A DNA stretch of 64,000 nucleotides from assembly GCF_006716745.1 (NCBI RefSeq), contig NZ_VFPP01000001.1, forward strand, positions 1,054,001 to 1,118,000, in the 5' to 3' direction. This document shows positions 2,698-58,642 of this stretch, piece by piece. The position numbers and the translations under genes were made by a program. The notes under the pieces were generated by a model. That model was not told the origin of the DNA. It did not search any database and saw nothing but the letters and a program-made list of their open reading frames with translations. Every line of letters starts with the position of its first letter. Positions within the stretch are counted from its first letter, which is position 1. The stretch comes from Saccharothrix saharensis. Lineage in GTDB: Bacteria; Actinomycetota; Actinomycetes; Mycobacteriales; Pseudonocardiaceae.

Positions 2698-2777
2698 CCC
2701 GACCCCGCCGACCACACCGTGCGCCGTGCCGCACCGGTGCGCCGGCGCGCGCCCCGACCACGGAAAGGCCTGATGGC

Positions 2778-4277
2778 ATGTCCCCCGAACGCGGCGCGTT
2801 CACCAACCCCGTGCTCCCCGGCTTCCACCCCGACCCGAGCGTGTGCCGGGTCGGCGAGGACTACTACCTGGTGTGCTCCAGCTTCGAGTACTTCCCCGGC
2901 GTGCCGCTCTTCCACAGCCGCGACCTGGTGCGCTGGACGCAGCTCGGCAACGTGCTGGACCGGCCCGACCAGCTGCGCCTCCCGCTCGACACGCCGTCGT
3001 CCGCGGGCGTGTACGCGCCGACCCTGCGCCACCACGACGGCCGGTTCTGGCTCGTCACCACGAACGTGAGCGGAGGTGGCAACCTCCTCGTCACCGCCAC
3101 CGACCCGGCCGGGCCGTGGTCGGACCCGGTCCTGCTGCCCGACCTGCCCGGCATCGACCCGGACCTCGCGTGGGACGACGACGGCACCTGCTGGTGCACT
3201 GTCGCGGGGGTGTCCCAGGTCCGGATCGACCCGCGCACCGGACAGGTGCTCGACGCGCCGCGGCGGATCTGGTCGGGAGCGCCCGGCGTGAAGGCGCCGG
3301 AAGCGCCGCACCTGTACCGGATCGGCGAGTACTGGTACCTGGTCATCGCCGAGGGCGGCACCGAGCGCGGCCACGGCGTGTCCATCGCCCGCGGCCGAAC
3401 GCCCTCGGGGCCGTTCGAGCCGTGCCCGACCAACCCGGTGCTCACCCACCGCGGCACCGACCACCCCATCCAGAACACCGGGCACGGCGACCTCGTGCAG
3501 GGACCGGACGGCTCGTGGTGGCTGGTGCTGCTCGGGGTCCGGCCGGGCGGCGGGACACCCGGCTGGCACGTGCTGGGCCGCGAGACCTTCCTCGCGCCCG
3601 TGACCTGGGTGGACGACTGGCCGGTGGTCGGTCCGCTGGAGCTCGCCGCGAGCGTGCCCTGGCCCGTGGCGCCGGAGCCGACCGCGGCGTACCGCGACGA
3701 CTTCGACCTGCCCGCGCTCGGGCCGGCCTGGATCTCGTTGCGGGACCGCCGGGAACGGCACTGCACGACGGCCGAGCGCGCCGGGTGGTTGACCCTCCGG
3801 GCACGCGGGGCGTCTTTGGACGATCGCGACGTCGTGTTCACCGGCCGACGCCAGCAGCACCCGTCGTGCCGGGTGAGCGCGTTGGTGGACGCCACGACCG
3901 GCACGGGCGGTCTGGCCGTGCGGCTGGACGAGGAGCACCACTACGAGATCGAGGCGAGCGCCGACGAGGTGCGGGTGGTCGCCCGCGTCGGCTCGCTGAA
4001 GACCGCGGTCGCGTCCCGGGCGGTGGCGGGCGGGCCGGTGGTGCTGGGCGTGGACGTGCGGGAGGAGGAGAACCTCCGGGACGCCCGCACCGGCCCCGAC
4101 ACCGTTTCTTTCGGCATCGGCGAGCCGGACGGGACGTTCACCACCTTGGCCACCCTCGACGGCCGCTACCTCTCCACCGAGGTGGCGGGTGGCTTCACCG
4201 GCCGGGTCATCGGCCTGTACGCCGGCGCGGGCACCGTCCACTTCGACTGGTTCGCCCACGAGCGGATCGACGACTGA
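2778..4277 (+). CDS. GH43 beta-xylosidase / alpha-L-arabinofuranosidase
   Basis: A 499-residue GH43 enzyme of the two-domain beta-xylosidase type: a five-bladed propeller followed by a C-terminal beta-sandwich (the family's C2 domain). No signal peptide is visible, so it should act inside the cell on imported xylo-oligosaccharides. Candidate catalytic residues match the family: base Asp19 in GFHPDPS, pKa-modulating Asp127 in GIDPDLAWD, acid Glu175 in KAPEAPHLYR, plus His236 in NTGHGDLV. The ATG at 2778 follows GGAAAGG at normal spacing. It has two paralogues here, at 57098-58642 (also intact) and 18638-20116 (changed at the active site). Xylosidase versus arabinosidase cannot be settled from sequence. 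Confidence 0.9.
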   Translation: MSPERGAFTNPVLPGFHPDPSVCRVGEDYYLVCSSFEYFPGVPLFHSRDLVRWTQLGNVLDRPDQLRLPLDTPSSAGVYAPTLRHHDGRFWLVTTNVSGGGNLLVTATDPAGPWSDPVLLPDLPGIDPDLAWDDDGTCWCTVAGVSQVRIDPRTGQVLDAPRRIWSGAPGVKAPEAPHLYRIGEYWYLVIAEGGTERGHGVSIARGRTPSGPFEPCPTNPVLTHRGTDHPIQNTGHGDLVQGPDGSWWLVLLGVRPGGGTPGWHVLGRETFLAPVTWVDDWPVVGPLELAASVPWPVAPEPTAAYRDDFDLPALGPAWISLRDRRERHCTTAERAGWLTLRARGASLDDRDVVFTGRRQQHPSCRVSALVDATTGTGGLAVRLDEEHHYEIEASADEVRVVARVGSLKTAVASRAVAGGPVVLGVDVREEENLRDARTGPDTVSFGIGEPDGTFTTLATLDGRYLSTEVAGGFTGRVIGLYAGAGTVHFDWFAHERIDD

Positions 4278-10292: not shown

Positions 10293-11309
10293 TCACGGCG
10301 GCGGCGCGGTGCTGCCCCGGACGACGAGCTTCGTCGGCAGTTCGACGCGGTCGTTGTCCGGCTCACCGCCCGCCGCCAGGGTCAGCAGCATCCCGGCCGC
10401 CTCCGCGCCCATCCGCCGCAACGGCTGCCGCACGGTGGTCAGCGGAGGGTCCGACCACTGGGTGAACGCCAGGTCGTCGAAGCCGACCACGCTCAGGTCG
10501 TGCGGGATGCGCAGCCCGAGCTCCCGCGCCGCGTCGTAGACGCCCAGCGCCTGCAGGTCGTTGGCCGCGAAGACGGCGGTGGGCCGGTCGGGCAGGCGCA
10601 GCAGCTCGCGCGCGGCGTCCCGGCCGCCGTCGTGGTAGAGCGGCGCGGTCCGCACGAGCTTGCGGTCCTGCGGTACGCCGGCCGCGTCCAGGGCCGCGCG
10701 GTAGCCGTCCAGGCGGGCGCGGCAGCACAGGAACTCCGCCGGACCGTTCACCATGGCGATGCGGCGGTGGCCGAGCCCGATCAGGTGACGGGTGGCGACC
10801 AGGCCGCCGTTCCAGTTCGTCGCGCCCACCGACGGGATCGAGTGGGTCGGCTCGCCGGTGGGGTCCAGCGCCACCAGCGGGATGGCGCGACTGCCCAGCT
10901 GGGCCAGCTGCGCCTCGCTGAACTCGGCGGAGACCGCGATGACCCCGACCGGACGGCGGGCCAGCATCTGCCGGGCCCAGGCGCTCTCCGGGGTGTGGCC
11001 GCCGTGCATCTCGGTCAGCGTCACGGCCAGCCCGTCCGGCCGGACCGCCTCCTCGACACCGCGGATGATCTCCAACGCCCACAGGCTGTCCAGCGACTGG
11101 AAGACCACCTCGACGATCGGGACCGCCTCGACCTTCTCGTTCTTCTGGAAGCCGTGCTCGCGGATCAGCTCCTCGATGCGCCGGCGCGTCCCGTCGGACA
11201 CGCCCGGCCGCCCGTGGATCACCTTCGACACGGTCGAGGCGGACACCCCGGCCAGGTCCGCGATCCAGGAGACCCGCACCTCACCGCCCGCGCGCCCATC
11301 CGCAGCCAC
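10293..11309 (-). CDS. LacI-family transcriptional regulator
   Basis: A 338-residue full-length LacI/GalR regulator. The helix-turn-helix covers about residues 14-33 (IADLAGVSASTVSKVIHG), followed by a hinge region and a sugar-binding domain from about 65 to the end, with the closing motif SVVGFDDLAFTQW. The start is GTG at 11307-11309. The preceding gene (ketose 3-epimerase-like) ends 35 bases upstream on the same strand, so the two are probably co-transcribed. It is one candidate for the protein that binds the 12-mer operators of the region, since no nearer operator of its own is seen. The effector is unknown. Confidence 0.88.
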   Translation of the reverse strand: MAADGRAGGEVRVSWIADLAGVSASTVSKVIHGRPGVSDGTRRRIEELIREHGFQKNEKVEAVPIVEVVFQSLDSLWALEIIRGVEEAVRPDGLAVTLTEMHGGHTPESAWARQMLARRPVGVIAVSAEFSEAQLAQLGSRAIPLVALDPTGEPTHSIPSVGATNWNGGLVATRHLIGLGHRRIAMVNGPAEFLCCRARLDGYRAALDAAGVPQDRKLVRTAPLYHDGGRDAARELLRLPDRPTAVFAANDLQALGVYDAARELGLRIPHDLSVVGFDDLAFTQWSDPPLTTVRQPLRRMGAEAAGMLLTLAAGGEPDNDRVELPTKLVVRGSTAPPP

Positions 11310-12401: not shown

Positions 12402-15092
12402 TCAGGCGCGCAGGCTCCACTGCTGGTTGGCGCCACCGCCGCAGGACCACAGGATGATCTTCGTGCCGTTCGCGGTGCCCGCGCCGGAGGCGTCCAGGCA
12501 CAGGCCGGACTGCACGCCCGTGATGGTGCCGTTGGCGTTGACGTTCCACTGCTGGTTGGTCTGCCCGTTGCAGTCCCAGAGCACCACCGTGGTGCCGTTG
12601 GTCGTGCCCTGGTTGTTCGCGTCCAGGCACTTGGTCCCACCCACCTGCAACTGCTTGCCCGAGGTGTGGGTGAAGCGCTGGTTGCTGCCGCCGTGGCAGT
12701 CCCACAGCTGGGCCTGCGCGCCGTTGGTCGTGGTCGAGCCGGGGATGTCGACGCACCGGCCGGACTGCCCCCCGACGATCGTGACGCCCTGCTGACCGCC
12801 GCCCTGCCTGCGGGCGATCGACTTCGACTCGGCCGACCGGTTGCCCTGCGCGTCCACGACGTAGAGCCGGTAGTCGCCGGGCGAGCTCGGCACGGCGATG
12901 GACGTCGCGGTGCCGCTCGCCCTGGTCATCGTCGGACCGGCGACGAACGTGGTCGTGCCCGACGGTGCCAACCAGACCGACCTGGTCGCGTCGCCGGCGC
13001 TGCGGATCGGGATCGTCGTACCCCCGGACCCGACGAACGTGCTGGACGGGAGCACGTGGTCCGGCAGGGAGAGGTTGCTCGGCGGGACGATGTCCCGGTA
13101 CGCGTCCTCCAGGCCGGAGTTCACCGCGATCGCGTGGGCCGGCGCCGGCCAGACGTAGTCCGAGTAGGTCAGGATGTCCTGGATCGTGCTGTTCGGCAGG
13201 ACCTTCTGGGACACCTTGTTGACCGGTCCGTAGGTCTGCGTGATGCTCAGGTCGTGCTTGCGGCCGAAGTCGTCTGAGTTGATCATCCAGGTGATGTTCT
13301 TGTCCACGCTGAGCACGTTGTCGCGGAAGCTGATGTACGCCGAGCCCTCGTCCGGGTGCAGGCCGTACTTGTGGCCGGCCGGGACGCCCTGCAGGTAGTT
13401 GGCGGTGATGGTGGTGCCCGGCTGGCTGCCCAGCGTGTAGATGGGGGCCGTGTCGCTGAGGCGCTGCACCGTGTCGATGATGTGGTTGTGGCTGATGGTG
13501 TTGTTCCGCGCCGTGGTCGTCGGGCGGTTGGGTGCGATCGAGCCCGAGGAGCCGTCGAAGTTCCACCAGCCCCAGCCGAGCGTGATGCCCGACCACGGGC
13601 TCTTCTCGATCCGGTTGTGCTGGATCGTCAGGGTGTCCGCGAAGTACGCCGAGATGGGGCTGTGCCCGTGGAACAGCACGGCGCTGTCGTACAGGAAGTT
13701 GTTCTTGATCTCGATGTTCTTCGGCAGGCCCTCGACGTGGGCGGGGTACTTCTCGCCGTTGGTCGCGGTGTGGTCACCGGTGTAGACGTGCTGGGGATGG
13801 CCCACGGAGACGGCGGAGCCGGCGATGTCGTTGGTGTGGTTGCCGGTCAGCCTCGTGTTCTGCACGTCGTTGACCATGGTGATCCCGTCGACGCCGGTGT
13901 GCTGCACCCGGTTGCGGTCCAGGTGGATGCCGTCGGCGTTCTCGATCTGGATGATGCCCGGCGCGACGTCGACGTTGCGGTAGTAGTAGACGTGGAAGTT
14001 CCCCTTCACGTACTGGGTGTTGCCCAGGTTGCCCTGCTGTGCCTGCTTGAACGAGGAGCCGGCCACCGTGAACAGGTTCCAGTCCGAGTGCTGCACCGTG
14101 AGACCGGCGAACGTGATGTCGCGGACGCGGTCGGTCGTGGAGGTCCCGGCGACGCGGAGCACCGTGGGGACGTTGTTCGGCGCGTAGACCTCCGCCGTCG
14201 TCATGTTCTCGGCATCGGTCTTGTAGTAGTAGAGCGTCCGGCTGGTCTTGTCGAAGTAGAACTCGCCCGGCGAGTCCAGGAACTCGTAGGCGTTCATGAA
14301 CTTGTGGGTCCCGCCGACCTGGTGGTTGCCGTTGAACGCGCCCTGCGCGATGGCCGCGCCCGGTTGCTGGAACAGCGCCACGCGGTTGGCGCCGTCACCG
14401 CTCGTGGTGACCTGGCGGACGCCCGCGATGGCGGTCGTCCAGGTCGTCGCCGTCTCGATCTCGATGTCGTCGGCGTTGCGGGAGATCGCGGGGAGGTCAC
14501 CGAGGCCGTACTTGGCGCCATCGCACTGGGAGCCCGACTCCCGCGCCCAGGCGGCCTGGCCCGCGGTGACGCTGTAGGTGCCGTAGCACCCCTGGGAGGT
14601 GATCGTCTTGGTGGCCATGAACGCGCGCTTGTCGTTGACGTAGAGCGCCCGGAGCTTGTTGGCGCGGTTGAGCGGCGCCTTCCAGATGTTGCCGCCGTGC
14701 TGCGTCCACCCGGTCACCCGCACACCACCGCTCAGCACCGGCTTCTCGTTCGGGTACGCGGAGTAGACGACGCGGTGCCCGTTCGTGCCGGAGTCGCTCG
14801 GCGTGAACTCCACGGCGCCGGTGATCGGGTAGGTGCCCCCGCGGAGGTAGACCTGGATGTCGCCCGACATGGTCCCCTTGGTCGCGCGGACGACGTCCCG
14901 CGCGCGCTGCACCGTCCGGAACGGCGCGGCGACGGTGCCGGGGTTGGCGTCATCCCCGGTGGGGGCGACGTAGTACGTGGCCTGGACGGCGGCCGAGGCC
15001 TCGAAGTGGTCTCCGAAGGTCGGCAGCAGCGCAGTGGACACGAACACCGCGATCGCGACCAACGACCTCGCGGCGGTCTTGGCTGGTTTCAC
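12402..15092 (-). CDS. Exported beta-helix glycosidase, GH141-like, with ricin-type trefoil
   Basis: An 896-residue exported protein with signal peptide (to about 34), a long right-handed parallel beta-helix (about 38-700), an Ig-like linker segment, and a C-terminal RICIN domain (about 765-896). The opening YYVAPTGDDANPGT, the segments SGTNGHRVVYSAYP and SPGEFYFD, and IYTLGSQPG with HPDEGSAYI resemble GH141 (alpha-L-fucosidase and xylanase activities are known), so a role on fucosylated or xylan side chains is inferred. The assignment is by motif memory and could be another beta-helix family such as GH120. The GTG at 15092 is chosen because it directly precedes the signal sequence; GTG at 15134 is the alternative. 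A paralogue lies at 26734-29118. It is 128 bases downstream of the GH6 operon, beyond a terminator. Confidence 0.68.
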   Translation of the reverse strand: MKPAKTAARSLVAIAVFVSTALLPTFGDHFEASAAVQATYYVAPTGDDANPGTVAAPFRTVQRARDVVRATKGTMSGDIQVYLRGGTYPITGAVEFTPSDSGTNGHRVVYSAYPNEKPVLSGGVRVTGWTQHGGNIWKAPLNRANKLRALYVNDKRAFMATKTITSQGCYGTYSVTAGQAAWARESGSQCDGAKYGLGDLPAISRNADDIEIETATTWTTAIAGVRQVTTSGDGANRVALFQQPGAAIAQGAFNGNHQVGGTHKFMNAYEFLDSPGEFYFDKTSRTLYYYKTDAENMTTAEVYAPNNVPTVLRVAGTSTTDRVRDITFAGLTVQHSDWNLFTVAGSSFKQAQQGNLGNTQYVKGNFHVYYYRNVDVAPGIIQIENADGIHLDRNRVQHTGVDGITMVNDVQNTRLTGNHTNDIAGSAVSVGHPQHVYTGDHTATNGEKYPAHVEGLPKNIEIKNNFLYDSAVLFHGHSPISAYFADTLTIQHNRIEKSPWSGITLGWGWWNFDGSSGSIAPNRPTTTARNNTISHNHIIDTVQRLSDTAPIYTLGSQPGTTITANYLQGVPAGHKYGLHPDEGSAYISFRDNVLSVDKNITWMINSDDFGRKHDLSITQTYGPVNKVSQKVLPNSTIQDILTYSDYVWPAPAHAIAVNSGLEDAYRDIVPPSNLSLPDHVLPSSTFVGSGGTTIPIRSAGDATRSVWLAPSGTTTFVAGPTMTRASGTATSIAVPSSPGDYRLYVVDAQGNRSAESKSIARRQGGGQQGVTIVGGQSGRCVDIPGSTTTNGAQAQLWDCHGGSNQRFTHTSGKQLQVGGTKCLDANNQGTTNGTTVVLWDCNGQTNQQWNVNANGTITGVQSGLCLDASGAGTANGTKIILWSCGGGANQQWSLRA

Positions 15093-15158
15093 CCTGTTCT
15101 CGCTTTCGCTCGGTTCCGGTCTTCGGGAGGCCACTCCACCCGGGAGCCGCGCGCCGAC

Positions 15159-15201
15159 CGGTTCCCCGTCCCGTGGAGGCGATCACCGGGACGGGGAACC
15201 G
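15159..15201 (-). terminator. Terminator after the GH6 operon
   Basis: A perfect 15-bp stem (15159-15173 and 15187-15201) with a 13-base loop, just past the stop of the second GH6 gene. It would separate the GH6 operon from the GH141-like gene. Confidence 0.75.
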
Positions 15202-15220
15202 ATTCGAGGCGGCTACCGCG

Positions 15221-18327
<3,107 letters not shown>

Positions 18328-18372
18328 TCAGGGTCCTCGCAGCGTCGTTGCTGTGATGTGGGCTGCAGCTTC

Positions 18373-18386
18373 CGGGAGCGCTCCCA
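18373..18386. promoter_or_regulatory. CebR-type operator before the GH6 operon
   Basis: CGGGAGCGCTCCCA is the exact reverse complement of the box before GH9 (7803-7816). It lies 45 bases upstream of the GH6 start codon. The same sequence before both cellulase transcription units supports a shared CebR-type repressor. Confidence 0.82.
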
Positions 18387-18456
18387 GGCATGGAGAAAGA
18401 TGCGCACTGCGGCTCGAATGTAACCACGGCCGACACCTCAGTCAATTGCCCGGGAC

Positions 18457-18483
18457 GCTAAAACTGTTAGCGCTAACTTTAGC
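18457..18483. promoter_or_regulatory. Perfect palindromic 12-mer operator with flanks
   Basis: The core GTTAGCGCTAAC (18466-18477) is a perfect palindrome, flanked by GCTAAA (18457-18462) and TTTAGC (18478-18483) exactly as at 7588-7614. It lies 138 bases before the GH6 operon start. Confidence 0.75.
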
Positions 18484-18595
18484 GGATTCTGCCCCGCAGG
18501 GTTTCGGAGCGCAGATCCACAACGCTGTCAAGTGGCTTTTCCGAGTCGATCCCCCACCCGATTCGCCCATCCGAACCAGCAGCGCCCCTTTCTTT

Positions 18596-18607
18596 GTTAA
18601 CGCACAC
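18596..18607. promoter_or_regulatory. Weak 12-mer operator copy
   Basis: GTTAACGCACAC differs from the group consensus at one position that is otherwise T or G. It is 130 bases from the perfect copy, nearly the same spacing as the pair at 63511/63642. Functional status is doubtful. Confidence 0.35.
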
Positions 18608-18637
18608 AAGAAAGGTTGCCGCGCACGCGGAGCGCTT

Positions 18638-20116
18638 TCAGGCGAGCCCGCGGTAGTCGAACCAGTCGAACGCCGCGACACCGCGCGTGACGTACATGCC
18701 GACGACCCGCCCGGCGAGCCCGCTGGTGACCTCGGGCGACAGGTACCGGCCGTCCAGCTCCGCCAACGGGCCCGGATCGTCGTCGACGTGGAACGCGATG
18801 GTGTCCGGCCCGGACGGCTCGACGCCCACGGGCTCGTCGGTCGGCCGCACGAACGACGGCGGCACGAGGTCGGTCGTGCGGGTGCGGACGGTCAGCGTGA
18901 TCGGACCGGGAGCCCTGGTGCGGCTGGCCACGACCTGGCGCACCGGCCCGATCCGGGCGATCACGTCCACCCGGCCCGGCACGACCTCGAAGTCGTAGCG
19001 GTGCGCCTCGTCGCGCCGGATGCTCAGGCCGGCGCGGGCCGTGCCGGGGTCCAGGCGGACCGACACCCGCGAGTCGAGGTGCCGCACCCTGCTGCCGACG
19101 AACGTGCAGCCGGGGCGGTCGAGGGTGTCGCCGGTGGCGCGCAGCGTCAGCCAGCCGGGCCGTTCGGTCAACGACCAGGCCCCCTCCGGGAGCCCGCGCG
19201 GTGAGATCCAGAACGGCGCCAGCACCACCTCGTCGAAGTCGTCGCGCGAGGGGTGCGGCGCGGCGGGCGACTCCCCCGCCGCGGTCACCGTCGCCTCGTC
19301 CACCACGGGCCACCCGTTGTCCCAGCGCACCGGGGTCAGGAACACCTCCTGCCCCAGCACGTGGAAGCCCGACGGGTGCTCGCGGGTGCCCGGCCGCACC
19401 AACCACCAGGCACCGCCCGGTGTCGTGACGAGGTCCGCTCGGCCGCTGACCCGGGTCGGCCCCGAGGTGTCGGCGAGGGTGCCCGGCGCCGGCTCGAACG
19501 GCCCGCGGGGCTTGCGCGCGCGGGCGACGGCCGGCGCGTCACCGCGATCGAACATCACGTACCACCAGCCACCCACCTGGTACAGGTGGGGCGCTTCCGG
19601 GTGCGGAGCGTCGTCGCCGGTCCACATCGGCCACGGACCTTCCAGCACCGTCCCCCGGTACGGGTCCACCCTGGCGGTGCACCCGTCGGTGGTGGCGCAC
19701 CAGCAGTCGCCGTTGCGGTCCCAGGCCAGGTCGGGCACGGCGCACGGGAGGTCGAGCCACACCGGGTCCGACCAGCGCCCGGCCGGGCGTTCGGTCGTGA
19801 CGACGAACGTGCCGCCCGCGGACAGGTCCCTCGCGATCACCCAGAACCGCCCGTCGTGGTGGCGGATCGTGGGCTGGTGGATCCCGCGCGCGGACGACGT
19901 GCCGGTGGACAGCCGCACCTGCTCCGGCCGGTCGAGGACGTTGCCGACCTGCCGCCAGTGCACCAGGTCGCGGCTGTGGAAGATCGGCACGCCCGGGAAG
20001 TACTCGAAGCTGGAGCACACCAGGTAGTAGTCCTCGCCCACCCGGCACACGCTCGGGTCCGGGTGGGATCCGCCGATCACGGGATTGCCGATCACGGGCT
20101 GGCGGGCGGTGCGCAC
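18638..20116 (-). CDS. GH43 beta-xylosidase paralogue with altered active site
   Basis: A 492-residue cytoplasmic protein, colinear with the GH43 enzymes at 2778 and 57098 (propeller plus C-terminal beta-sandwich). The base motif SHPDPSVCR and acid motif HPEAPHLYQ are kept. However, the pKa-modulating Asp of GIDPDL is Val127 here (CAVPDL), and the conserved His of TGHGDLV is Arg226 (SGRADLV). The loop holding the TERGH motif is also shortened to DAPAVARAR. These changes at conserved GH43 positions suggest reduced or changed catalysis, possibly a pseudoenzyme. The start is GTG at 20116, after GGAAGGA; the open frame continues far upstream but without homology. It lies 146 bases downstream of GH27 on the same strand and could share its transcript. 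Confidence 0.85.
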   Translation of the reverse strand: MRTARQPVIGNPVIGGSHPDPSVCRVGEDYYLVCSSFEYFPGVPIFHSRDLVHWRQVGNVLDRPEQVRLSTGTSSARGIHQPTIRHHDGRFWVIARDLSAGGTFVVTTERPAGRWSDPVWLDLPCAVPDLAWDRNGDCWCATTDGCTARVDPYRGTVLEGPWPMWTGDDAPHPEAPHLYQVGGWWYVMFDRGDAPAVARARKPRGPFEPAPGTLADTSGPTRVSGRADLVTTPGGAWWLVRPGTREHPSGFHVLGQEVFLTPVRWDNGWPVVDEATVTAAGESPAAPHPSRDDFDEVVLAPFWISPRGLPEGAWSLTERPGWLTLRATGDTLDRPGCTFVGSRVRHLDSRVSVRLDPGTARAGLSIRRDEAHRYDFEVVPGRVDVIARIGPVRQVVASRTRAPGPITLTVRTRTTDLVPPSFVRPTDEPVGVEPSGPDTIAFHVDDDPGPLAELDGRYLSPEVTSGLAGRVVGMYVTRGVAAFDWFDYRGLA

Positions 20117-20262
20117 GGTGTTCCTTCCGAGGACAGCGGGGTGGGGCGAAGCCGATCGGAGGCGGGGTGGACCAGGCACCCTCGCGGTGCCGTGCGCGAA
20201 GGGGCCGGGTGCCTGCGTCGCGCGACCGCGCCGGAGGACGGGCCTGCCGCTCGACGCCACCG

Positions 20263-21906
20263 TCAGGCGCGACTCCACCTCTGGTTGGCCTGGCCGTTGC
20301 AGGTCCACAGGATCAGCCGGGTGCCGTTGGCGGAGCCCGCCTGCTCGGCGTCCAGGCACAGCCCGGCCCGGGTGTTGCGGAGCGACCCGTCCGAGCCGAG
20401 GGTCCACTTCTGGTTGTCCTGCCCGTTGCACGACCACGCGATCACGCGGGTGCCGTTGGCGGTGCCCTGGTTGTACGCGTCGAGGCACTTGTCGCCGAAC
20501 ACCCGGACCTCGCCGCCGGGCCAGGTCGTCCACTGCTGGTTCGCGGCGGTGTCGCAGTCCCACAGCAGCGTGGCCGCGCCGGCGGCGGTGGAGGCGTTCT
20601 CCGTGCCGACGCAGCGGCCCGAGCCCGCGCCGCGCAGCCTGCCGGTGGTGGCGGCGATCGGACTGCCCCCGGAGACGCGGAACGCCGCGACGCCGTGCGC
20701 CGGCACGCTCGCCGAGATCGTGCCGGAGGTGGTCGAAGCGCCTCCGGTCCACAGGTCCAGGAGGGTGAACGAGCCGCCCGACAGGCCGATCTGGGCGGCC
20801 GTGGTGGACACCGTGGCGGTGCCGCTGCCCCGGTTGACCAGGCCCACGGCCACCGAGCCGTCGCTCAACGGCTTGGCGAACACCTCGGTGTTGCCGTCGT
20901 CGCGCACCCGTCGACCGCCCACACCGAGCTGGTCCTGGTTGACCGCGATCAGGCGCGGGTTGCGCAGGATCGCGCTGACGTCGGCCGACATCGTGCGGAT
21001 GTCGTTGCCCGCCATGAGGGGCGCGGCCATCAGCGACCACAGCGCGAAGTGCGAGCGCGATTCGGTCAGCGTGAGCCCGGGACGGCCCACCACGAGCATG
21101 TCGGGGTCGTTCCAGTGCCCGGGTCCGGACTGGACGGCGAGCGGGGCGGTGACGTCCAGGACGTTGCCGACGCCCATGGGGTAGCTGTTGGTGTTGCCGT
21201 TCTGCCAGATGTCCAGCAGGTCCTCGGTCGTCCGCCAGAGGTCGGCGACCTCGCCCCAGTTGTACTTGTCGCCGGTCGGTGCGTGGAAGCTGTTGGGGTT
21301 GATGCTGTAGACGATCGGGCGGCCGGTCGCGCGCAGGGCGTCACGCATGATCGTGAACCGGGCGACCTGCTCGTCCCGGGTGCCGCTGCCCGAGCACCAG
21401 TCGTACTTCAGGTAGTCCACACCCCACGACGCGAACGACCGTGCGTCCTGGACCTCGTGCCCCTTGCTGCCGGTCGAGCCGGGGTGGGTGCCGACGCCCT
21501 GGGCGCACGTCTTCTCGTTCGGCGCCTGGTAGATGCCGAACTTCAACCCCTTGCCGTGGATGTAGTCGCCGAGCGCCTTCATGCCGCTGGGGAACTTGGT
21601 CGGGTGGGCGCGCAGGTTGCCCTGGGCGTCGCGCTGCGGGTCGAACCAGCAGTCGTCCACGACGACGTACTGGTAGCCCGCGTCACGCATGCCCGAGCTC
21701 ACCATCGCGTCGGCGGCTTGGCGCACCTGCGCCTCGGTGATGCCGCAGCCGAAGCTGTTCCAGCTGTTCCAGCCCAGCGGCGGGGTGAGCGCGGGACTGC
21801 CCGGCGCGGCCTGGGCGGTGGGCTCGACGGGGGACGCGGTGACCAGGCCGAGCGCGGCGGCGGCAGCGGCGGCGAGGTGCAGGAGTCGCCGGGTACCAGC
21901 GGACAT
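20263..21906 (-). CDS. Exported GH27 alpha-galactosidase with ricin-type trefoil
   Basis: A 547-residue secreted GH27 enzyme that should remove terminal alpha-galactose from galactomannan or related glycans. Signal peptide to about 33; catalytic barrel from PPLGWNSWNSFGCGI (about 42) with nucleophile Asp169 (YLKYDWC) and acid/base Asp267 (WNDPDML); a small beta domain; RICIN domain about 415-547. The motif VVVDDCWF keeps both Asp of typical alpha-galactosidases, which argues mildly against the beta-L-arabinopyranosidase branch of GH27. The ATG at 21906 follows AAGGGACG. A 12-mer operator lies 97 bases upstream, between this gene and the divergent GH10 xylanase. Confidence 0.9.
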   Translation of the reverse strand: MSAGTRRLLHLAAAAAAALGLVTASPVEPTAQAAPGSPALTPPLGWNSWNSFGCGITEAQVRQAADAMVSSGMRDAGYQYVVVDDCWFDPQRDAQGNLRAHPTKFPSGMKALGDYIHGKGLKFGIYQAPNEKTCAQGVGTHPGSTGSKGHEVQDARSFASWGVDYLKYDWCSGSGTRDEQVARFTIMRDALRATGRPIVYSINPNSFHAPTGDKYNWGEVADLWRTTEDLLDIWQNGNTNSYPMGVGNVLDVTAPLAVQSGPGHWNDPDMLVVGRPGLTLTESRSHFALWSLMAAPLMAGNDIRTMSADVSAILRNPRLIAVNQDQLGVGGRRVRDDGNTEVFAKPLSDGSVAVGLVNRGSGTATVSTTAAQIGLSGGSFTLLDLWTGGASTTSGTISASVPAHGVAAFRVSGGSPIAATTGRLRGAGSGRCVGTENASTAAGAATLLWDCDTAANQQWTTWPGGEVRVFGDKCLDAYNQGTANGTRVIAWSCNGQDNQKWTLGSDGSLRNTRAGLCLDAEQAGSANGTRLILWTCNGQANQRWSRA

Positions 21907-22002
21907 CGTCGTCCCTTCGGTTCGACCGGAACACCGTCGGCGGTGCGCGATACGGGGTCACGCCCATGGAACTATGCGCCCGAGGACAGGTCAAAGCTAA
22001 AT

Positions 22003-22014
22003 GTGAGCGCTAAC
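22003..22014. promoter_or_regulatory. 12-mer operator near GH27
   Basis: GTGAGCGCTAAC, identical to the core at 63511-63522. Preceded by GCTAAA, and the outer TCAAAG/CTTTGA (21991-21996 and 22014-22019) form an inverted repeat. It lies 97 bases before the GH27 start. Confidence 0.7.
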
Positions 22015-22037
22015 TTTGAGCACTTCGACCGAAGTGA

Positions 22038-23762
<1,725 letters not shown>

Positions 23763-23769
23763 GCCGATG

Positions 23770-23810
23770 ACGGGAAAGGCGGGGGACACGTCGTCCCCCG
23801 CCTTTCCCGT
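23770..23810. terminator. Strong bidirectional terminator between GH10 and CE3
   Basis: A perfect 18-bp stem (23770-23787 and 23793-23810) with a 5-base loop fills most of the 57-base gap between these convergent genes. It is the strongest hairpin noticed in the window. Confidence 0.92.
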
Positions 23811-23819
23811 GCGTCAGGG

Positions 23820-24938
23820 TCAGGCCCGCAGCGTCCACTGCTGGTTCGACTGGCCGGAGCAGGTCCACAGGACCAGCTTGGTGCCGTTGCCGGTACCGAG
23901 GTTGTACGCGTCCAGGCACAACCCCGACAGCACGTTGGTGATCGTGCCGTTGGCGTTGACGTTCCACTGCTGGTTGGTGTCACCGTGGCAGTCCCAGGTC
24001 ACCACCTGGGTGCCGTTGGTCGTGCCCCGGCCGTAGGCGTCCAGGCACTTGGTGCCGAGGACGACCAACTGGCGCGAGGAGTTGTGCGTCCACGACTGGT
24101 TGGGCTGGCCGTGGCAGTCCCAGAGCTGGAGCTGCGTGCCGTTGCCGGTCGTCGAACCCGGCACGTCCAGGCAGCGCCCCGACGCCACGCCCACGACCTG
24201 CCTGCCCTGCGACGCGACCGGGTCGCCGATGCTCCCGGGCACGGCGCGCAGCGCGGCGTACCAGGTCGCGGCCATCTTGTCGTAGCCGGTGGCGGTGGGG
24301 TGCACGCCGTCGATCAGGTCGCCCGTGGTCAGGGCGGCGTGCATGTCCACCATGCGCACGCGCTTGCCCGCGTTGACCTTGCTCTGCACCATGCCGGGGA
24401 TGGTCGCGTTGTAGGTCCGGGCCGCGGCGTTCTGCCCCGAGTTGGACAGCGGGATGATCGTGGCGACGAACACGTCCGCGTTCGGGGCGGTCGCGGTGAT
24501 CTTGTCGACCAGGGCCGACAGGCGGGCGGGTGCGTTGGCCACGTTGTAGTTCTGCAGGATGTCGTTGGTGCCGATGTGGAGCAGCACCGTGCGGGGGTTC
24601 GTGTTGCGCAGCCAGTTGACCACGTTGGCGTCGATCTGGTCGATGCGCCAGCCCGGGTGCCCCTGGTGGTCGTGGTCGCCGAGCGATCCGGGGCCGTTGA
24701 ACTGCGAGCCGACGAAGTCCACCCGGTAGTTGCCCGCCCCGAACCGCTGCCACAGCCCGATCCGGTAGCCGCCGGGCACCTGCGTCCCCTCGGTGATGGA
24801 GTCACCCAGCGGCATGACCCGCACCCCGCCGTTCGACTCCGCGGCGGCGGGGCCCGCGGGCAGCAGCGCGGCGGTGACCAGCGCGGCGGTGATCAGGGCC
24901 GCGCCGCGGGCGGCGATTCTGTTGACGCGTTGTCGCAC
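23820..24938 (-). CDS. Exported CE3-type acetyl xylan esterase with ricin-type trefoil
   Basis: A 372-residue secreted SGNH hydrolase, best matched to the CE3 acetyl xylan esterase pattern. Signal peptide to about 33; catalytic Ser47 in MPLGDSITEG; the Asn block in HIGTNDI; Asp210 and His213 in IDGVHPTATGY; also VDFVGSQ and GHPGW, typical of CE3. RICIN domain about 238-372. It would deacetylate xylan and help the neighbouring GH10 enzyme. The second GTG of a close pair (24938) is chosen as start because GAGGAG sits 5 bases before it. Gene order suggests a unit with GH54 upstream, but a hairpin stands between them. Confidence 0.85.
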   Translation of the reverse strand: MRQRVNRIAARGAALITAALVTAALLPAGPAAAESNGGVRVMPLGDSITEGTQVPGGYRIGLWQRFGAGNYRVDFVGSQFNGPGSLGDHDHQGHPGWRIDQIDANVVNWLRNTNPRTVLLHIGTNDILQNYNVANAPARLSALVDKITATAPNADVFVATIIPLSNSGQNAAARTYNATIPGMVQSKVNAGKRVRMVDMHAALTTGDLIDGVHPTATGYDKMAATWYAALRAVPGSIGDPVASQGRQVVGVASGRCLDVPGSTTGNGTQLQLWDCHGQPNQSWTHNSSRQLVVLGTKCLDAYGRGTTNGTQVVTWDCHGDTNQQWNVNANGTITNVLSGLCLDAYNLGTGNGTKLVLWTCSGQSNQQWTLRA

Positions 24939-24960
24939 TTGCACTCCTCGTGGTGAGCAG

Positions 24961-24986
24961 CGGTCCGGCACCGGTGTGCCGGACCG
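24961..24986 (-). terminator. Hairpin after the GH54 gene
   Basis: An 11-bp perfect stem (24961-24971 and 24976-24986) with a 4-base loop, 28 bases beyond the GH54 stop and 22 bases before the CE3 start. Confidence 0.7.
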
Positions 24987-25013
24987 CCGTGGAGCAGGGA
25001 ACTCGTGGTGGGA

Positions 25014-26531
25014 TCAGCCGACCCGCCACTGCTGGTTGGCGCCGCCGTTGCAGGTCCACAGCTGCACCAGCGCACCGTTGGCGGTGGACGCGCCGGACAC
25101 GTCCAGGCACAGGCCGGACTGCGCGCCGGTGATGGTGCCGTTGGCGTTGACGTTCCAGCGCTGGTTGGCCTGGCCGTTGCACGACCAGAGGACCGCCCGC
25201 GTGCCCGCGCTCGTCCCTTGGCCGTACGCGTCGAGGCACATCTGACCGGCGCCGGCGGACACGGTCAACTGGCCCGAGGACGTCCGGGTCCAGGTCTGGC
25301 CGGAGCTGCCCTGGCAGTCCCAGATCCGGGCCTGCGCGCCCGCCGTGCCGCTCGGCACGTCGAGGCACTTGCCCGCGCCGACCGCGCGCACCGCCCCACC
25401 GGGGGTGGTGCCACCGCCGGTGGTGTACCCGGCCGCGACGATGTTGGCCTGCACCGCGTTCTCGGTCGCGTCGGACGGGTAGCCCGCGACCATCGCCCCT
25501 TCGTAGAAGGTCCCCGCGCTGAGGTTCGCGCCGCCGTCGGGCTTGCAGCAGTCGCCGCCGCTGCCCAGGATGATTGCTCCCTGCTTCTTCATCGGGCTGT
25601 ACCCGTTGGGGAGCGCGCCGTCCCACAGGGTGGTGAGGCTGCCCACCTGCGCGTCGCTGCCCTTGAGCGCGAACCGCGTGGTGCCGTTGTTCTTCAGCAT
25701 CGCGGTGACGAACTTGCTGGTGAACGCGCGCTGGTTCGGGTTCCACGACTGGCTTCCACCGGGGAAGAGCCCCCATTCGAGGTCCGCCTGGACCCACGGG
25801 CCGGTGCCGGCGCACCCGCCGAACCAGCACTGGGTGCTGAAGTTGATGGCGTCCATCGCGCCCGCCGCGTCCGCCTTGCGGGTCGTCTCGCTGTTGCCGT
25901 AGTCGAAGCAGCAGCCGTTGTTGACGTGCGTGCCGCTGGTCACCATGTACATGCCCTCCGGCGCGGCGCCGGTCGGCACGCCCGTCAGGTGGCCGTCGCG
26001 CCAGTAGCTGTTGCCGGGGTTGATGTAGAGCGAGTACGCCTTGCTGCCGCCGACGGCGAGCGATTCGGACGTCGCGACCGCGGGCCTGCTCTGGGGTGAC
26101 CCCGGTACCACGGTCGAGCCCTGGTACCACAGGTCGTTGCCGCGACCGGACTGGTCGTAGACCACGGTGATGACGCAGGTGGTGCCGGCGCAGAACGAGT
26201 CCTGGGTCGCCGCGTTCGCGGTACCGCCGGCGGCCGTCAGGCCGATGTCCCGCGTCGTGTTGTCCGAGGAACGCCTGACCTGGTAGAGGTTGCCGGCGTA
26301 CGAGCCGTAGAGGGCCCGGGTCGTGCTGTGCGCGGCCACGCAGGGCGTGCCACCGGACGCGTAGATGTCGCACGGGCCCGTGCCGGCCGCCGACGCGGCC
26401 ACCGGCGCCGACCACGTCAGCAACGCCGCGGGCAGCAGGGCGAGTGCGGCCGCGGCTCGCGCGCGCACCGCCGCCGGCTTGCGCCACCATCGCTGCACGG
26501 GCCCCGTCTCGGGAACGGGTGAAGGCTGCAT
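25014..26531 (-). CDS. Exported GH54 alpha-L-arabinofuranosidase with ricin-type trefoil
   Basis: A 505-residue secreted enzyme whose catalytic part matches GH54 (fungal AbfB type) throughout: GPCDIYASGGTPCVAAHSTTR in pieces, YDQSGRGNDL, QADLEWGLFPG, and AGTFYEGAMVAGYPSD. By comparison with the Aspergillus enzyme, Glu252 is the nucleophile and Asp327 (GSGGDCC) the acid/base; the adjacent Cys pair in NGCCFDYGN corresponds to that enzyme's unusual vicinal disulfide. Signal peptide to about 48. The usual C-terminal CBM42 is absent; a RICIN domain (about 378-505) takes its place. The ATG at 26531 follows TAGGAG. It removes arabinose from arabinoxylan or arabinan. A degenerate operator lies at 26656-26674. 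Confidence 0.9.
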   Translation of the reverse strand: MQPSPVPETGPVQRWWRKPAAVRARAAAALALLPAALLTWSAPVAASAAGTGPCDIYASGGTPCVAAHSTTRALYGSYAGNLYQVRRSSDNTTRDIGLTAAGGTANAATQDSFCAGTTCVITVVYDQSGRGNDLWYQGSTVVPGSPQSRPAVATSESLAVGGSKAYSLYINPGNSYWRDGHLTGVPTGAAPEGMYMVTSGTHVNNGCCFDYGNSETTRKADAAGAMDAINFSTQCWFGGCAGTGPWVQADLEWGLFPGGSQSWNPNQRAFTSKFVTAMLKNNGTTRFALKGSDAQVGSLTTLWDGALPNGYSPMKKQGAIILGSGGDCCKPDGGANLSAGTFYEGAMVAGYPSDATENAVQANIVAAGYTTGGGTTPGGAVRAVGAGKCLDVPSGTAGAQARIWDCQGSSGQTWTRTSSGQLTVSAGAGQMCLDAYGQGTSAGTRAVLWSCNGQANQRWNVNANGTITGAQSGLCLDVSGASTANGALVQLWTCNGGANQQWRVG

Positions 26532-26578
26532 TGTCACTCCTACGACGATGTGGGAGGGCAGGGTGAACGGCGGCAGCG

Positions 26579-26605
26579 CGCGCCCGCAGCCGTGCTGCGG
26601 GCGCG
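26579..26605 (-). terminator. Hairpin between the GH141-like and GH54 genes
   Basis: A perfect 12-bp stem (26579-26590 and 26594-26605) with a 3-base loop. It lies about 130 bases past the GH141-like stop and about 50 before GH54, so it may end the upstream transcript or sit in the GH54 leader. Confidence 0.6.
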
Positions 26606-26655
26606 ACGGGAGCGGTGGCGGCGTCGAACCGCTTCGAAGCATGCCGACGGTAGGG

Positions 26656-26674
26656 GCTAAAAAAGCGCTAAAGC
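26656..26674. promoter_or_regulatory. Degenerate operator-like element before GH54
   Basis: GCTAAAAAAGCGCTAAAGC holds a GCTAAA flank and one AGCGCTAA half of the 12-mer operator, about 125 bases before the GH54 start. It resembles the other sites but lacks a complete core. Confidence 0.4.
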
Positions 26675-26733
26675 AACGGTCGGCTCCGCCACCGGCGTGG
26701 TGCGCACCGGTCGCGACGGTCCCGACCTCCAGG

Positions 26734-29118
26734 TCAGCCGCGCGTGGTCCACTGCTGGTTCGTGCCGCCGTGGCACGCCCAGAGGTGGAGCAGGGTGCCG
26801 TTCGCGGTCCCGTTGCCGCTGGCGTCCAGGCACAGCCCGGACTGCACGCCGGTGATGGTGCCGTTGGCGTTGACGTTCCACTGCTGGTTGGCGCCGCCGT
26901 GGCAGTCCCAGATGATCGCCGCGGTCCCGTTGGCGGTCCCCGCGCCGCTGGCGTCGAGGCACTTGTTCCCGTTCACCACGAGCTGCTTGCCCGAGGTGTG
27001 GGTCCACCGCTGGTTCGCAGCGCCGTTGCAGTCCCAGAGCCGCGCCTGGGCACCGTTGCCGCCGCCGGAGGCGACCTCGGCGCAGCGCCCCGACTGGGTG
27101 CCCACGAGCATGGCGTTCTGCGGACCGGTGCCGGTGCCCCCCGCGGGCCCGGCGTTCGCCGTCACGGCCCGCGCGCCGGAGGGCCAGTTGCCGTTGGCCA
27201 CCACCGTGTTGCCGGACACCACGTTGCCCCGGTCGCCGTTGGTCACGTTGGTGCTGCCGTTGGTCGACCAGTTGCCGGTGAGCGTCCAGTTGCCCATGTT
27301 CTCGCCGCCCCAGTAGTTGGCGGTGGCCCACGTGCCGGTGTTGTCGAACACGTTGCCCGTGACGGAGTAGTACTTCGAGCCTTCGTCGAAGTAGACCCCG
27401 AAGTAGCCGTTGGTCCGCTGGCAGTGGTTCCCGCTGATCGAAGCGCCCGGGTTCCACGCCAGCGTGTAGATGCACCCGCCGTCGTTCATCTGCTGCATGA
27501 CGTCGTGCACGTAGTTGTTGATGAGCCGGTTGTTGGACGCGGTGGTGGGCGTCGTGTACCGCGGTTGGTAGTTGTAGAGCCCGCGGTTGGCGTAGTTGGT
27601 GTTGCCGCCGGCGTCGTTGGCGCCCCAGCCGTAGCCGATCGAGATGCCCGAGTAGGGCATGTTGTAGACCTCGTTGTGGGCCACGGTGGCGGTGCTGACG
27701 TAGGTGTTCAGCACCGAGACGTTGCCCCGGTACTCCACGCCGAGGTCGTGGATGCGGTTGTGGCTGATCGTGATGTTCCGGTTGACCATCCGCTGGTCGG
27801 TCGGGTGGTGGGCGTCGGCGCGCACGCCGCCGACCACGACGCCGCCCGCCGAGCTGTGGGCGATCTCCGACCGGGTGACCGTGACGTTGCTCGCGCCGAG
27901 GCCGACGCCGCTCGCGTGGGCGTTGGCGTCGTTGCCGATGCCGATGGCCGTCTGGCCCAGGTTGACGAACCGGGACTCGCTGAACGTGATGTTGTCGGCG
28001 GCGGACACCTGCACGGCCGCGGGCATCTGGTTCCAGTGCGGCCGCGCCGCCTCGAACTGGGTGCAGCCGTTCTGGCACGACGTGAGCCGGTCGGCGGGCC
28101 AGTTCCAGTTGCCCGCGATGTAGCTGCCGGTCTGCTGGTCGACGTACCCCTGGTTGCTGCTGGGCCCGAGCCAACTGGTGCCGGTGAACGTGATGCCGCT
28201 GAACGAGATGTGGTGCGCCGGCGCGTCGTAGGTGCCACCGATGTCCACCAGCGACTGCACCACGGGCAGCTCGACGCTCGCGGTGCTCATGTTCTGCCCG
28301 GCCAACGGGATGTAGGACAACGCGCCCGTGCCCGGGTTCAGGTACCACTCCCCCGGCGTGTCCAGGAACTCGTAGGCGTTGGCCAGGTAGAACGGCCCCG
28401 CCCGGTGCGGCTGGCTCAGCGTGTCGTAGCCGAAGGTGTTGTTGTTCCACGCGGGCTGCTGCATGGTCAGGAAGTTCCCGCTGATGCTCTGCACCGGCGA
28501 GTACCGGTCGGTGAACGAGTTGACGCTCTCCACCTCGACCCGGTTCTGGTTCGCCAGGTTGTTCAGATAGGTCAACGCCGTGCTGGAGAACCTCATCCCC
28601 GTGCTGGTGAACGTGAAGTCGGCGCGGTTGACCCGGGTGCGCGCCCGGGTCGCGATCGCACCGTCCACGTAGAGCTGGCGCGAGTCGATCCCGGTGGGGA
28701 CGGTAGCGCGCCAGATGTTCCGACCGGCGTCCACCACCGACCAGCCGGTGACCGCGCGGGCGCCGCTGATCACGGGACGCGCGGACGGCGCGGCCTGCCA
28801 CAGCACGCGGTAGCCGTTGGTGCCGGAATCCGCCGCGGTCAGCCGCAGCGGCTGGGCGAGCCGGTACACCCCGTCGGCCAACTGCACGACGATGTCACCG
28901 GACATGGAGCTGTTCTGCGACCGCACAGCGGCCTGTGCGGCGGTCAGTGAACACGGTTGGGTGGCGGAGCAACTCGTGCCGGTGCCCGACGGTGACGCGT
29001 AGAGGGTCGTGGTGGCGGCGGACGCGGGTGGGGCGAGGGTGACCAGCGCGGCGAGCACCGCGGCGGCGGTGCCGACCGACGGCAGCCTGCGCGACGCGGC
29101 GGAAGAGGGCGCGGACAA
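26734..29118 (-). CDS. Exported beta-helix glycosidase, GH141-like, with ricin-type trefoil (second copy)
   Basis: A 794-residue exported protein, colinear with the one at 12402-15092: signal peptide (to about 34), parallel beta-helix with many N-N-x-I/V coils, and a RICIN domain (about 665-794). Shared landmarks include SGTNGYRVLW, TPGEWYLN, the Asp-containing NDGGCIYTLAWNPG and FDEGSKYYSVTGNVFDN. It keeps a DGG motif where the other copy has DTA, so the two may differ in activity. GH141 (fucosidase/xylanase) is the best guess. The start is a TTG at 29118, supported by AGGAGG six bases upstream. Confidence 0.7.
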   Translation of the reverse strand: MSAPSSAASRRLPSVGTAAAVLAALVTLAPPASAATTTLYASPSGTGTSCSATQPCSLTAAQAAVRSQNSSMSGDIVVQLADGVYRLAQPLRLTAADSGTNGYRVLWQAAPSARPVISGARAVTGWSVVDAGRNIWRATVPTGIDSRQLYVDGAIATRARTRVNRADFTFTSTGMRFSSTALTYLNNLANQNRVEVESVNSFTDRYSPVQSISGNFLTMQQPAWNNNTFGYDTLSQPHRAGPFYLANAYEFLDTPGEWYLNPGTGALSYIPLAGQNMSTASVELPVVQSLVDIGGTYDAPAHHISFSGITFTGTSWLGPSSNQGYVDQQTGSYIAGNWNWPADRLTSCQNGCTQFEAARPHWNQMPAAVQVSAADNITFSESRFVNLGQTAIGIGNDANAHASGVGLGASNVTVTRSEIAHSSAGGVVVGGVRADAHHPTDQRMVNRNITISHNRIHDLGVEYRGNVSVLNTYVSTATVAHNEVYNMPYSGISIGYGWGANDAGGNTNYANRGLYNYQPRYTTPTTASNNRLINNYVHDVMQQMNDGGCIYTLAWNPGASISGNHCQRTNGYFGVYFDEGSKYYSVTGNVFDNTGTWATANYWGGENMGNWTLTGNWSTNGSTNVTNGDRGNVVSGNTVVANGNWPSGARAVTANAGPAGGTGTGPQNAMLVGTQSGRCAEVASGGGNGAQARLWDCNGAANQRWTHTSGKQLVVNGNKCLDASGAGTANGTAAIIWDCHGGANQQWNVNANGTITGVQSGLCLDASGNGTANGTLLHLWACHGGTNQQWTTRG

Positions 29119-57097: not shown

Positions 57098-58642
57098 TCA
57101 GGGCTGCTCCGGGTCGTCGAGCGGGCCGTGCTCGAACCAGTCGAACCAGGCCGTGCCCTCGGTGGCGTACATGCCGATCACCCGGCCCGTGAAGCCGGTG
57201 GCGACCTCCGTGGACAGGTACCTGCCGTCCAGCTCGACCAGCGGCTCGGGGTCGTCGCCGACGTGGAACGCGAGGTAGTCCGGCGCGGCGACGTGCAGGC
57301 CCGGCGCCTCCCGCGACCACTTGCGGGCCGAACGGGTGGTGATCGCGAGCGTCACCGGGCCGGGAGGCACGGCGCGGGTGGCGACGCTCTGGCGCAGCGG
57401 GCCGATGCGGGCGATGACGTCCGCCCGCCCGTCGGCCACCTCCAGGTCGTAGTGGTGCCCCTCGTCCAGGCGCACCGACAACCCGGCCCGGCCGGGACCG
57501 TGGTCCAGCAGCACGGCGGTCCGGCTCTCGACGTGCTGCTGGCGTCGGCCGAGGAACGTGCAGCCCGGTCGGTCCAGCGTCGACCCGGTGGCGTGCAGGG
57601 CGAGCCACCCCGGCCGTTCGGTCAGCGACCACGAGCCGTCCGCGCGCGACCGCGGCGAGATCCACCGGGGGTCGAGGTCCACGGCGTCGAAGTCGTCCCG
57701 CTCCGGCGACGCCTCCCCCGGCCGGGCGCCGGCCGGCGCTCGTTCCCGCAGGTTGACCGGACCCACGCGGGGCCAGCCGTCCTCCCACCGCACGGGTGTG
57801 AGGAACGTTTCCCGGCCGAGCACGTGGAACTTGGGGCTGTACCCGACCGGACGCGTCGCGAGCAGCACCATCCACCACTCGCCGTCCGGGGTGGTGACCA
57901 GGTCGGCGTGACCGGTGCTCTGGATCGGCTGGTCCGTGCTGCGGTGCGACAGGATCGGGTTGGCCGGAGCCGGTTCCCAGGGGCCGCGCGGCGAGCGGGC
58001 ACGCGCCATGGCCACGGTGTGGCCGCGTTCGGTGCCGCCCTCGGCGATCATCAGGTACCACCACTCGCCGATGCGGTACAGGTGCGGTGCCTCCGGCCAC
58101 TGCAACCCGGTGCCCTCCCACGCCGGCACCGGCCCTTCCAGCACCTTCCCGGCCTCGGGGTCGATGCGGGCGACCTGCACGCCGGAGAAGCTGGGCCCGT
58201 GGGCCCCGGCGAACGCGCACCAGCAGTTCCCGTCCTCGTCCCACGCCAGGTCGGGGTCGATACCGGGCAGGTCGATCCACACGGGGTCCGACCACGGACC
58301 CTCGGGCCGTTCGGCGGTGACGATGAAGTTGCCGCCGTGCGACACGTTCGTGGTGATCATCCAGAAGCGGCCGTCGTGGTGCCGGATCGTCGGGGCGTAG
58401 ATGCCGTCGGACGCCATCGCGTCGGCCGGCAGCGGGAGCTGCGACGGGCGGTCCAGGACGTTGCCGATCTGCCGCCAGTGCACCAGGTCGCGGCTGTGGA
58501 AGAGCGGCACGCCCGGGAAGTACTCGAAGCTGGAGCACACCAGGTAGTAGTCCTCGCCCACCCGGCACACGCTCGGGTCCGGGTGGAAGCCGGGGAGCAC
58601 GGGGTTGTCGTAGTGCGACACCGCGGGCTTCGGTGGAGTCAT
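57098..58642 (-). CDS. GH43 beta-xylosidase / alpha-L-arabinofuranosidase
   Basis: A 514-residue cytoplasmic GH43 enzyme with propeller and C-terminal beta-sandwich. The catalytic set is intact: base Asp in GFHPDPS, modulator Asp in GIDPDLAWD, acid Glu in WPEAPHLYR, and His in STGHADLV. It lies 24 bases after the CUT1 permease genes and closes that operon, so it should hydrolyse the oligosaccharide the importer brings in. The arrangement (binding protein, two permeases, glycosidase) mirrors the bxlEFGA xylobiose operon of streptomycetes, with GH43 in place of GH3. The ATG at 58642 follows AAGGGA. Confidence 0.92.
   Translation of the reverse strand: MTPPKPAVSHYDNPVLPGFHPDPSVCRVGEDYYLVCSSFEYFPGVPLFHSRDLVHWRQIGNVLDRPSQLPLPADAMASDGIYAPTIRHHDGRFWMITTNVSHGGNFIVTAERPEGPWSDPVWIDLPGIDPDLAWDEDGNCWCAFAGAHGPSFSGVQVARIDPEAGKVLEGPVPAWEGTGLQWPEAPHLYRIGEWWYLMIAEGGTERGHTVAMARARSPRGPWEPAPANPILSHRSTDQPIQSTGHADLVTTPDGEWWMVLLATRPVGYSPKFHVLGRETFLTPVRWEDGWPRVGPVNLRERAPAGARPGEASPERDDFDAVDLDPRWISPRSRADGSWSLTERPGWLALHATGSTLDRPGCTFLGRRQQHVESRTAVLLDHGPGRAGLSVRLDEGHHYDLEVADGRADVIARIGPLRQSVATRAVPPGPVTLAITTRSARKWSREAPGLHVAAPDYLAFHVGDDPEPLVELDGRYLSTEVATGFTGRVIGMYATEGTAWFDWFEHGPLDDPEQP

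Follow-up and report, generated by a model that had tools for sequence, protein, structure and literature searches.

Does the gene at positions 18638-20116 of the window (the whole 64,000-nucleotide stretch of Saccharothrix saharensis DNA analysed here) encode an enzyme, the remnant of one, or a protein that has taken on another task? Its product is a GH43 propeller followed by a GH43_C2 beta-sandwich. It is a member of the GH43 family in both sequence and fold: PF04616 (GH43) matches it in Pfam at 7.6e-55, covering profile positions 1-288 of 288, and the model is a five-bladed propeller. PF17851 (GH43_C2) matches at 4.3e-18, whereas an NCBIfam search with the protein as query gave no match. 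No obvious signal peptide was seen. PDB entry 7jvh, whose title names the CAZy subfamily GH43_12, is among the relatives with this architecture, and the genome holds 19 GH43 matches. The sequence-only reading of this DNA had described a full-length gene with a normal start, and we agree; the 492-residue frame opens with a GTG behind GGAAGGAACACC, and both the start and the ribosome-binding site are kept across orthologues. A longer frame from the in-frame GTG at 21040 was rejected, as it would run into the upstream GH27 gene.

18638..20116, minus strand: putative GH43 pseudoenzyme gene, GTG start, 492 residues, Pfam GH43 and GH43_C2, AF2 model
20117..20128, minus strand: ribosome-binding site ahead of the GTG start
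19307..20092, minus strand: five-bladed propeller (formerly catalytic), residues 9-270, PF04616
18641..19246, minus strand: C-terminal GH43_C2 beta-sandwich, residues 291-492, PF17851, the most conserved part of the protein in its clade
20263..21906, minus strand: GH27-ricin gene immediately upstream, on the same strand as the pseudoenzyme gene and a conserved neighbour (GH27 and ricin read from sequence)

The window encodes two paralogues of the same type and a fourth GH43 protein of another subfamily.

about 2772-4277, plus strand: intact GH43 paralogue, 51% identity, same architecture, complete motifs
57098-58642, minus strand: intact GH43 paralogue, 62% identity, same architecture, complete motifs
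62035-63411: fourth GH43, other subfamily, with CBM6 (Pfam)

The three same-type proteins had been called colinear. They are indeed alignable, but one of them is encoded on the opposite strand. Unlike the pseudoenzyme, both paralogues keep the full active-site motifs, including GIDPDL and a histidine motif that reads TGHGDLV or TGHADLV. At these two places the translated frame of the window gene has CAVPDL, with Val127 for the Asp, and SGRADLV, with Arg226 for the His, just as the sequence-only reading had stated; the base and acid motifs that it listed as retained, HPDPSVC (Asp20) and PEAPHL (Glu174), are likewise present. That observation was right and understated. It overlooked a five-residue deletion in the EGGT loop, a four-residue deletion before the His motif, and the changes R256Q, Y80H/A81Q, Q222R and F467L. 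The differences are not a matter of chance, because the aligned intact relatives show little or no variation at the changed positions. The residues concerned, with their state in the seven orthologues described below, are these.

20057..20059, minus strand: Asp20, general-base position, kept in the window protein, His in G016 and G005
19874..19879, minus strand: His80-Gln81 for the Tyr-Ala of the YAP motif, -1 pocket, site of the BoGH43A Ala94 backbone contact
19736..19738, minus strand: Val127 for the pKa-modulating Asp, Val or Ala in 7/7
19595..19597, minus strand: Glu174, general-acid position, kept in the window protein, Lys or Gly in 4/7
19549..19550, minus strand: junction of the deleted five-residue EGGT-loop segment (BoGH43A Glu210, +1 subsite), common to 7/7
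19439..19441, minus strand: Arg226 for the conserved calcium-site His, Arg in 6 and Gly in 1
19349..19351, minus strand: Gln256 for the Arg of LGRET, Gln or Pro in 7/7
18716..18718, minus strand: Leu467 where intact relatives invariably have the Phe of the C-domain GFTG motif; clade members carry Ala, Leu or Pro
18803..18883, minus strand: C-domain loop TRTTDLVPPSFVRPTDEPxGVEPxGPD, almost unchanged within the clade but variable among intact paralogues; part of it (423-431) has low pLDDT

The active site of BoGH43A offers a frame of reference for these changes. In that enzyme, Asp34 is the base, Asp140 the pKa modulator and Glu189 the acid, while Ala94, which holds the sugar through its backbone amide, and Glu210 are sugar contacts (PMC4967831). 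In our alignment, Asp34 and Glu189 correspond to Asp20 and Glu174 and are both kept, Gln occupies the Ala94 position, and Glu210 is left without a counterpart because the EGGT loop is deleted. The comparison with GH43 structures that had been proposed earlier places Val127 at Asp140; in VIA-align, the AF2 model (pLDDT 85.1, pTM 0.88, residues 423-431 of low confidence) superposes on BoGH43A 5jox with a Z of 44.0 and an rmsd of 2.1 Å over 457 residues. Judged by the model, the fold can accommodate the changes in sequence; since the alignment behind the model included intact relatives, the model is no proof that the pocket folds normally. BoGH43A (5jow/5jox), the G. thermoleovorans enzyme 5z5d and XynB3 (2exh) have the same propeller and beta-sandwich fold in the same domain order, at 29-37% identity. 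From such two-domain beta-xylosidases/alpha-L-arabinofuranosidases the window protein differs in being without their pKa Asp, calcium-site His, EGGT loop, LGRET Arg, YAP motif and GFTG Phe. In XacGH43_1, the active-site His coordinates calcium, and calcium-activated GH43 enzymes are catalytically impaired when it is mutated (PMC7809346). PDB entry 2exj is titled as the D128G mutant of the Geobacillus enzyme, altered at the same pKa position, with xylobiose bound. We also considered whether the GFTG Phe corresponds to a pocket Phe of other GH43 proteins (the F503/F507 mutants of PDB titles); the alignment gave no confirmation, and the correspondence stays a lead.

These losses are not peculiar to one genome. 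A scan of 84,980 species genomes found them again in two close relatives, one from Saccharothrix deserti (78% identity) and one from Saccharothrix sp. S26 (67%); the remaining relatives whose motifs were printed in that scan were intact, bar one from Streptomyces curacoi. The latter (L085, 6001-7478) is an intact-type GH43 relative with three in-frame stops across the match, possibly a frameshifted gene. Among 25 Saccharothrix genomes, seven, the window's own included, encode an orthologue; all are full length, 68-84% identical to the window protein, and they form one clade (SH-aLRT 99). A profile built from the seven found no additional member, and none outside Saccharothrix, among 297 genomes of the family, with the lowest orthologue at 928 bits and the best other protein at 733. 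In an rpoB tree, the carriers fall within one subgroup with absences interspersed; support was weak, and the tree is not used here as evidence on vertical inheritance.

The pKa Asp, the His and the EGGT loop are missing in every orthologue, and because the loop deletion is shared, the loss of the pocket predates the diversification of the clade. The clade-wide substitutions are D127 to V/A, H226 to R/G, R256 to Q/P, Y80 to H/R and F467 to A/L/P. Positions that are invariant in 20 or more intact relatives of the genus and lost in all clade members include Y80, D127, H214, R215, Q222, H226 and R256, together with T461, F467 and T468 in the C-domain. The two residues that the window protein retains have fared no better elsewhere: the base Asp is His in two of the seven, and the acid Glu has been lost in four (Lys in two, Gly in two). 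No catalytic residue is common to the whole clade, none of the seven proteins has the complete triad of an active GH43 hydrolase (base Asp, pKa Asp, acid Glu), and none has its calcium-binding His. Canonical catalysis therefore cannot be the conserved function, since base and acid drift as well. Catalytic residues have thus been lost from an otherwise intact and conserved fold, as judged from sequence and the AF2 model, and the window protein is probably a catalytically dead paralogue, a conserved pseudoenzyme, of the two-domain GH43 beta-xylosidase/alpha-L-arabinofuranosidase type.

Might the protein instead be a glycosidase that is still active, with altered chemistry or specificity, in which Asp20 and Glu174 are at work and some other group stands in for the pKa Asp and the calcium-site His? 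Some residual activity of the window protein would be compatible with its sequence, in which base and acid are both still present, and the base Asp is also kept in G015 and G022. Moreover, a member of the triad can be replaced: the GH43_24 exo-beta-1,3-galactanases Pc1,3Gal43A and BT3683, which likewise depart from the canonical triad, are active without the canonical base Asp and use a Gln as base (PMC7939473). That Gln is well conserved, and GH43_24 keeps the acid and pKa residues (PMC7939473), whereas the pseudoenzyme clade has no comparable conserved pocket residue. The G019 and G017 copies do carry Glu or Asp at position 126, immediately ahead of the lost pKa position, but the acid Glu is missing from both; the window copy reads Cys-Ala-Val there, with no acid within one residue. 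Against this proposal stand also the losses of acid (4/7) and base (2/7), the clade-wide loss of the +1-subsite loop and of -1 pocket residues, and the low constraint on residues 161-290 around the pocket, the lowest in the protein. We consider continued catalysis very unlikely, and with no catalytic acid or base conserved within the clade, the new hydrolytic specificity that the sequence-only reading had offered as one option is disfavoured.

The dN/dS analysis that had been suggested was run with a home-made pairwise maximum-likelihood codon model, not codeml, and also jointly on three independent species pairs, for which intact paralogues from the same genomes served as controls. Over the whole gene, pairwise omega among the pseudoenzymes was 0.11-0.15; selection was most relaxed (0.14-0.30) in residues 161-290, which surround the acid and the loop. 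In the joint model, the propeller had an omega of 0.153 in the pseudoenzymes versus 0.037 in the intact enzymes (2dlnL 50.3 for the difference), and the C-domain had 0.064 versus 0.068 (2dlnL 0.07). An omega of 1 for the pseudoenzyme propeller was rejected (2dlnL 204). The gene is maintained by purifying selection and is not in neutral decay. In the intact enzymes, the 57098-58642 type among them, the propeller is the more conserved domain, whereas the order is reversed in the pseudoenzymes; compared with intact paralogues of the same genomes, amino-acid change is shifted toward the propeller (CMH p 2e-7). This shift of constraint to the C-domain sets the pseudoenzyme apart from two-domain beta-xylosidases/alpha-L-arabinofuranosidases. 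Within the C-domain, the loop at residues 410-429 has a mean pairwise identity of 0.93 in the clade versus 0.56 in the intact paralogues. Conserved yet flexible, it may resemble a binding segment.

The history of the locus in other species bears on the same question. In G002, a sister gene is broken, but HPDPSAC, YAP, VDPDL, PESPHL, STGHSDLV and LGRET are still readable in it, in different frames and with one stretch missing; the ancestor therefore had a normal active site. This decayed relative (L104, about 937-2346) lies downstream of an apparent GH30 gene. Only about the first 154 nt of the gene are left in G006, directly behind GH27; this stub (L187, 3802-3955), consisting of the start and about 50 codons, is followed by a gene resembling the GH43-CBM6 gene of the window. 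In G004 and G014, there is no trace of the gene at the same spot, and the flanking DNA aligns through. With the gene absent or reduced to a stub in these close relatives, it must be dispensable in some species. Such a record, in which every stage of loss is represented (stub, clean absence, frame-broken sister), together with a propeller omega about four times that of intact paralogues, is what one might expect if the window gene were a duplicate that lost its function recently, a pseudogene in the making whose frame is open only because GC-rich DNA has few stops. Nevertheless, that explanation is unlikely and strongly disfavoured by the omega values, which lie far below 1 in both domains. None of the seven genomes shows a frameshift or stop despite protein identities down to 68%, the ribosome-binding site and start are conserved, and the C-domain is constrained as in working enzymes, one of its loops more so. 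Purifying selection of this kind could reflect the avoidance of misfolding only. Even so, a conserved, non-hydrolytic protein is the best reading, given that the whole clade shares the pocket loss, that acid and base drifted independently and that selection persists. The earlier proposal of a pseudoenzyme is thereby supported.

Wherever the flanking sequence suffices, in the window and in five further genomes, the immediate upstream neighbour of the pseudoenzyme gene is the GH27-ricin gene, in the same orientation; in G015, the upstream sequence ends in the same ricin-like C-terminus. G017 and G019 have a short gap between the two genes, against about 150 nt in the remaining five of the seven. 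Because the gap in those five genomes has a hairpin-like inverted repeat, co-transcription with GH27 is likely only in G017 and G019. The repeat folds strongly in four relatives (z -2.9 to -5.0), but the window hairpin is no better than shuffled sequence (z -0.26). It occupies 20168-20213 of the window and the same gap in L121, L122, L123 and L090, where the sequence varies and the stem persists. Where strong, such a repeat may end or stabilise the GH27 transcript. More widely, positions 7889-29118 form a dense plant-polysaccharide cluster, with a large cellulase-like gene at 7889, two GH6-like genes, GH27, GH10, GH43s and a LacI-type regulator (names read from sequence). Neighbouring secreted proteins encoded at 12402-29118 (beta-helix type, GH27, GH10, SGNH and arabinofuranosidase-like) end in very similar ricin-type modules, which suggests that these modules have been exchanged within the cluster.

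10293-11309: LacI-type regulator, read from sequence

The large plant-polysaccharide cluster and its regulator lend some appeal to the idea of a cytosolic sugar-binding sensor, in which the dead propeller pocket would bind a pentose or an oligosaccharide and signal to a regulator. Inactive glycosidases can, after all, serve as lectins. The difficulty lies in the pocket itself. Nearly all ligand-contacting residues of the -1 pocket are gone: by the BoGH43A comparison, the -1/+1 sugar contacts at Asp140, the Ala94 position and Glu210 are lost, as is the acid in four of the seven, and nowhere is the protein less conserved than around the pocket. With constraint gone from the old pocket, a sensor using it fits worst among the roles considered. 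We regard this sensor, which the sequence-only reading had also suggested, as improbable.

The constraint map fits best with a role for the C-terminal domain, for example in hetero-oligomerisation with intact paralogues, and the binding-partner role also put forward earlier is compatible with the shift of constraint. Taken as a whole, the evidence is best explained by a conserved GH43 pseudoenzyme, which may serve as a non-catalytic binding or oligomer partner. More tentatively, it might oligomerise with the intact GH43 enzymes or help to regulate them. Each of the seven carrier genomes has at least one intact paralogue; this co-occurrence is uninformative for partnership because most non-carrier relatives have them too. 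A beta-xylosidase review held nothing on GH43 oligomer interfaces, so the partner idea is here without literature support.

The sequences show the following course of events. The lineage lost its -1/+1 pocket once (EGGT loop, pKa Asp, His, Arg and YAP), and the general acid and base then changed independently of each other. Purifying selection meanwhile continued to act on the full-length protein, most of all on its C-terminal beta-sandwich. The product would have a parent-like fold, would not hydrolyse glycosides via the GH43 inverting mechanism, and would be kept as a cytoplasmic, non-catalytic protein. Most likely, it would act through its C-terminal domain and outer propeller surface, partnering intact GH43 proteins of the same genomes. 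It is conceivable, though doubtful as yet, that in this genus-level clade selection moved from the pocket to the C-terminal beta-sandwich and its flexible loop as a pentosidase became a protein that binds others to regulate or scaffold hemicellulose breakdown.

The GH43 fold family is well known, and the window protein appears to be a conserved GH43 pseudoenzyme without a described precedent that we could find; full-text literature searches returned no described GH43 pseudoenzyme, and absence there is no proof. Catalytic loss that is graded and independent, intact paralogues alongside, the motif-bearing remains of a sister gene and a transfer of constraint to the accessory domain would together make this clade a clean natural experiment on the function of GH43_C2. 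Annotation usually treats degenerate glycoside hydrolases as enzymes, and GH43 gene counts would overestimate the number of hydrolases in Saccharothrix.
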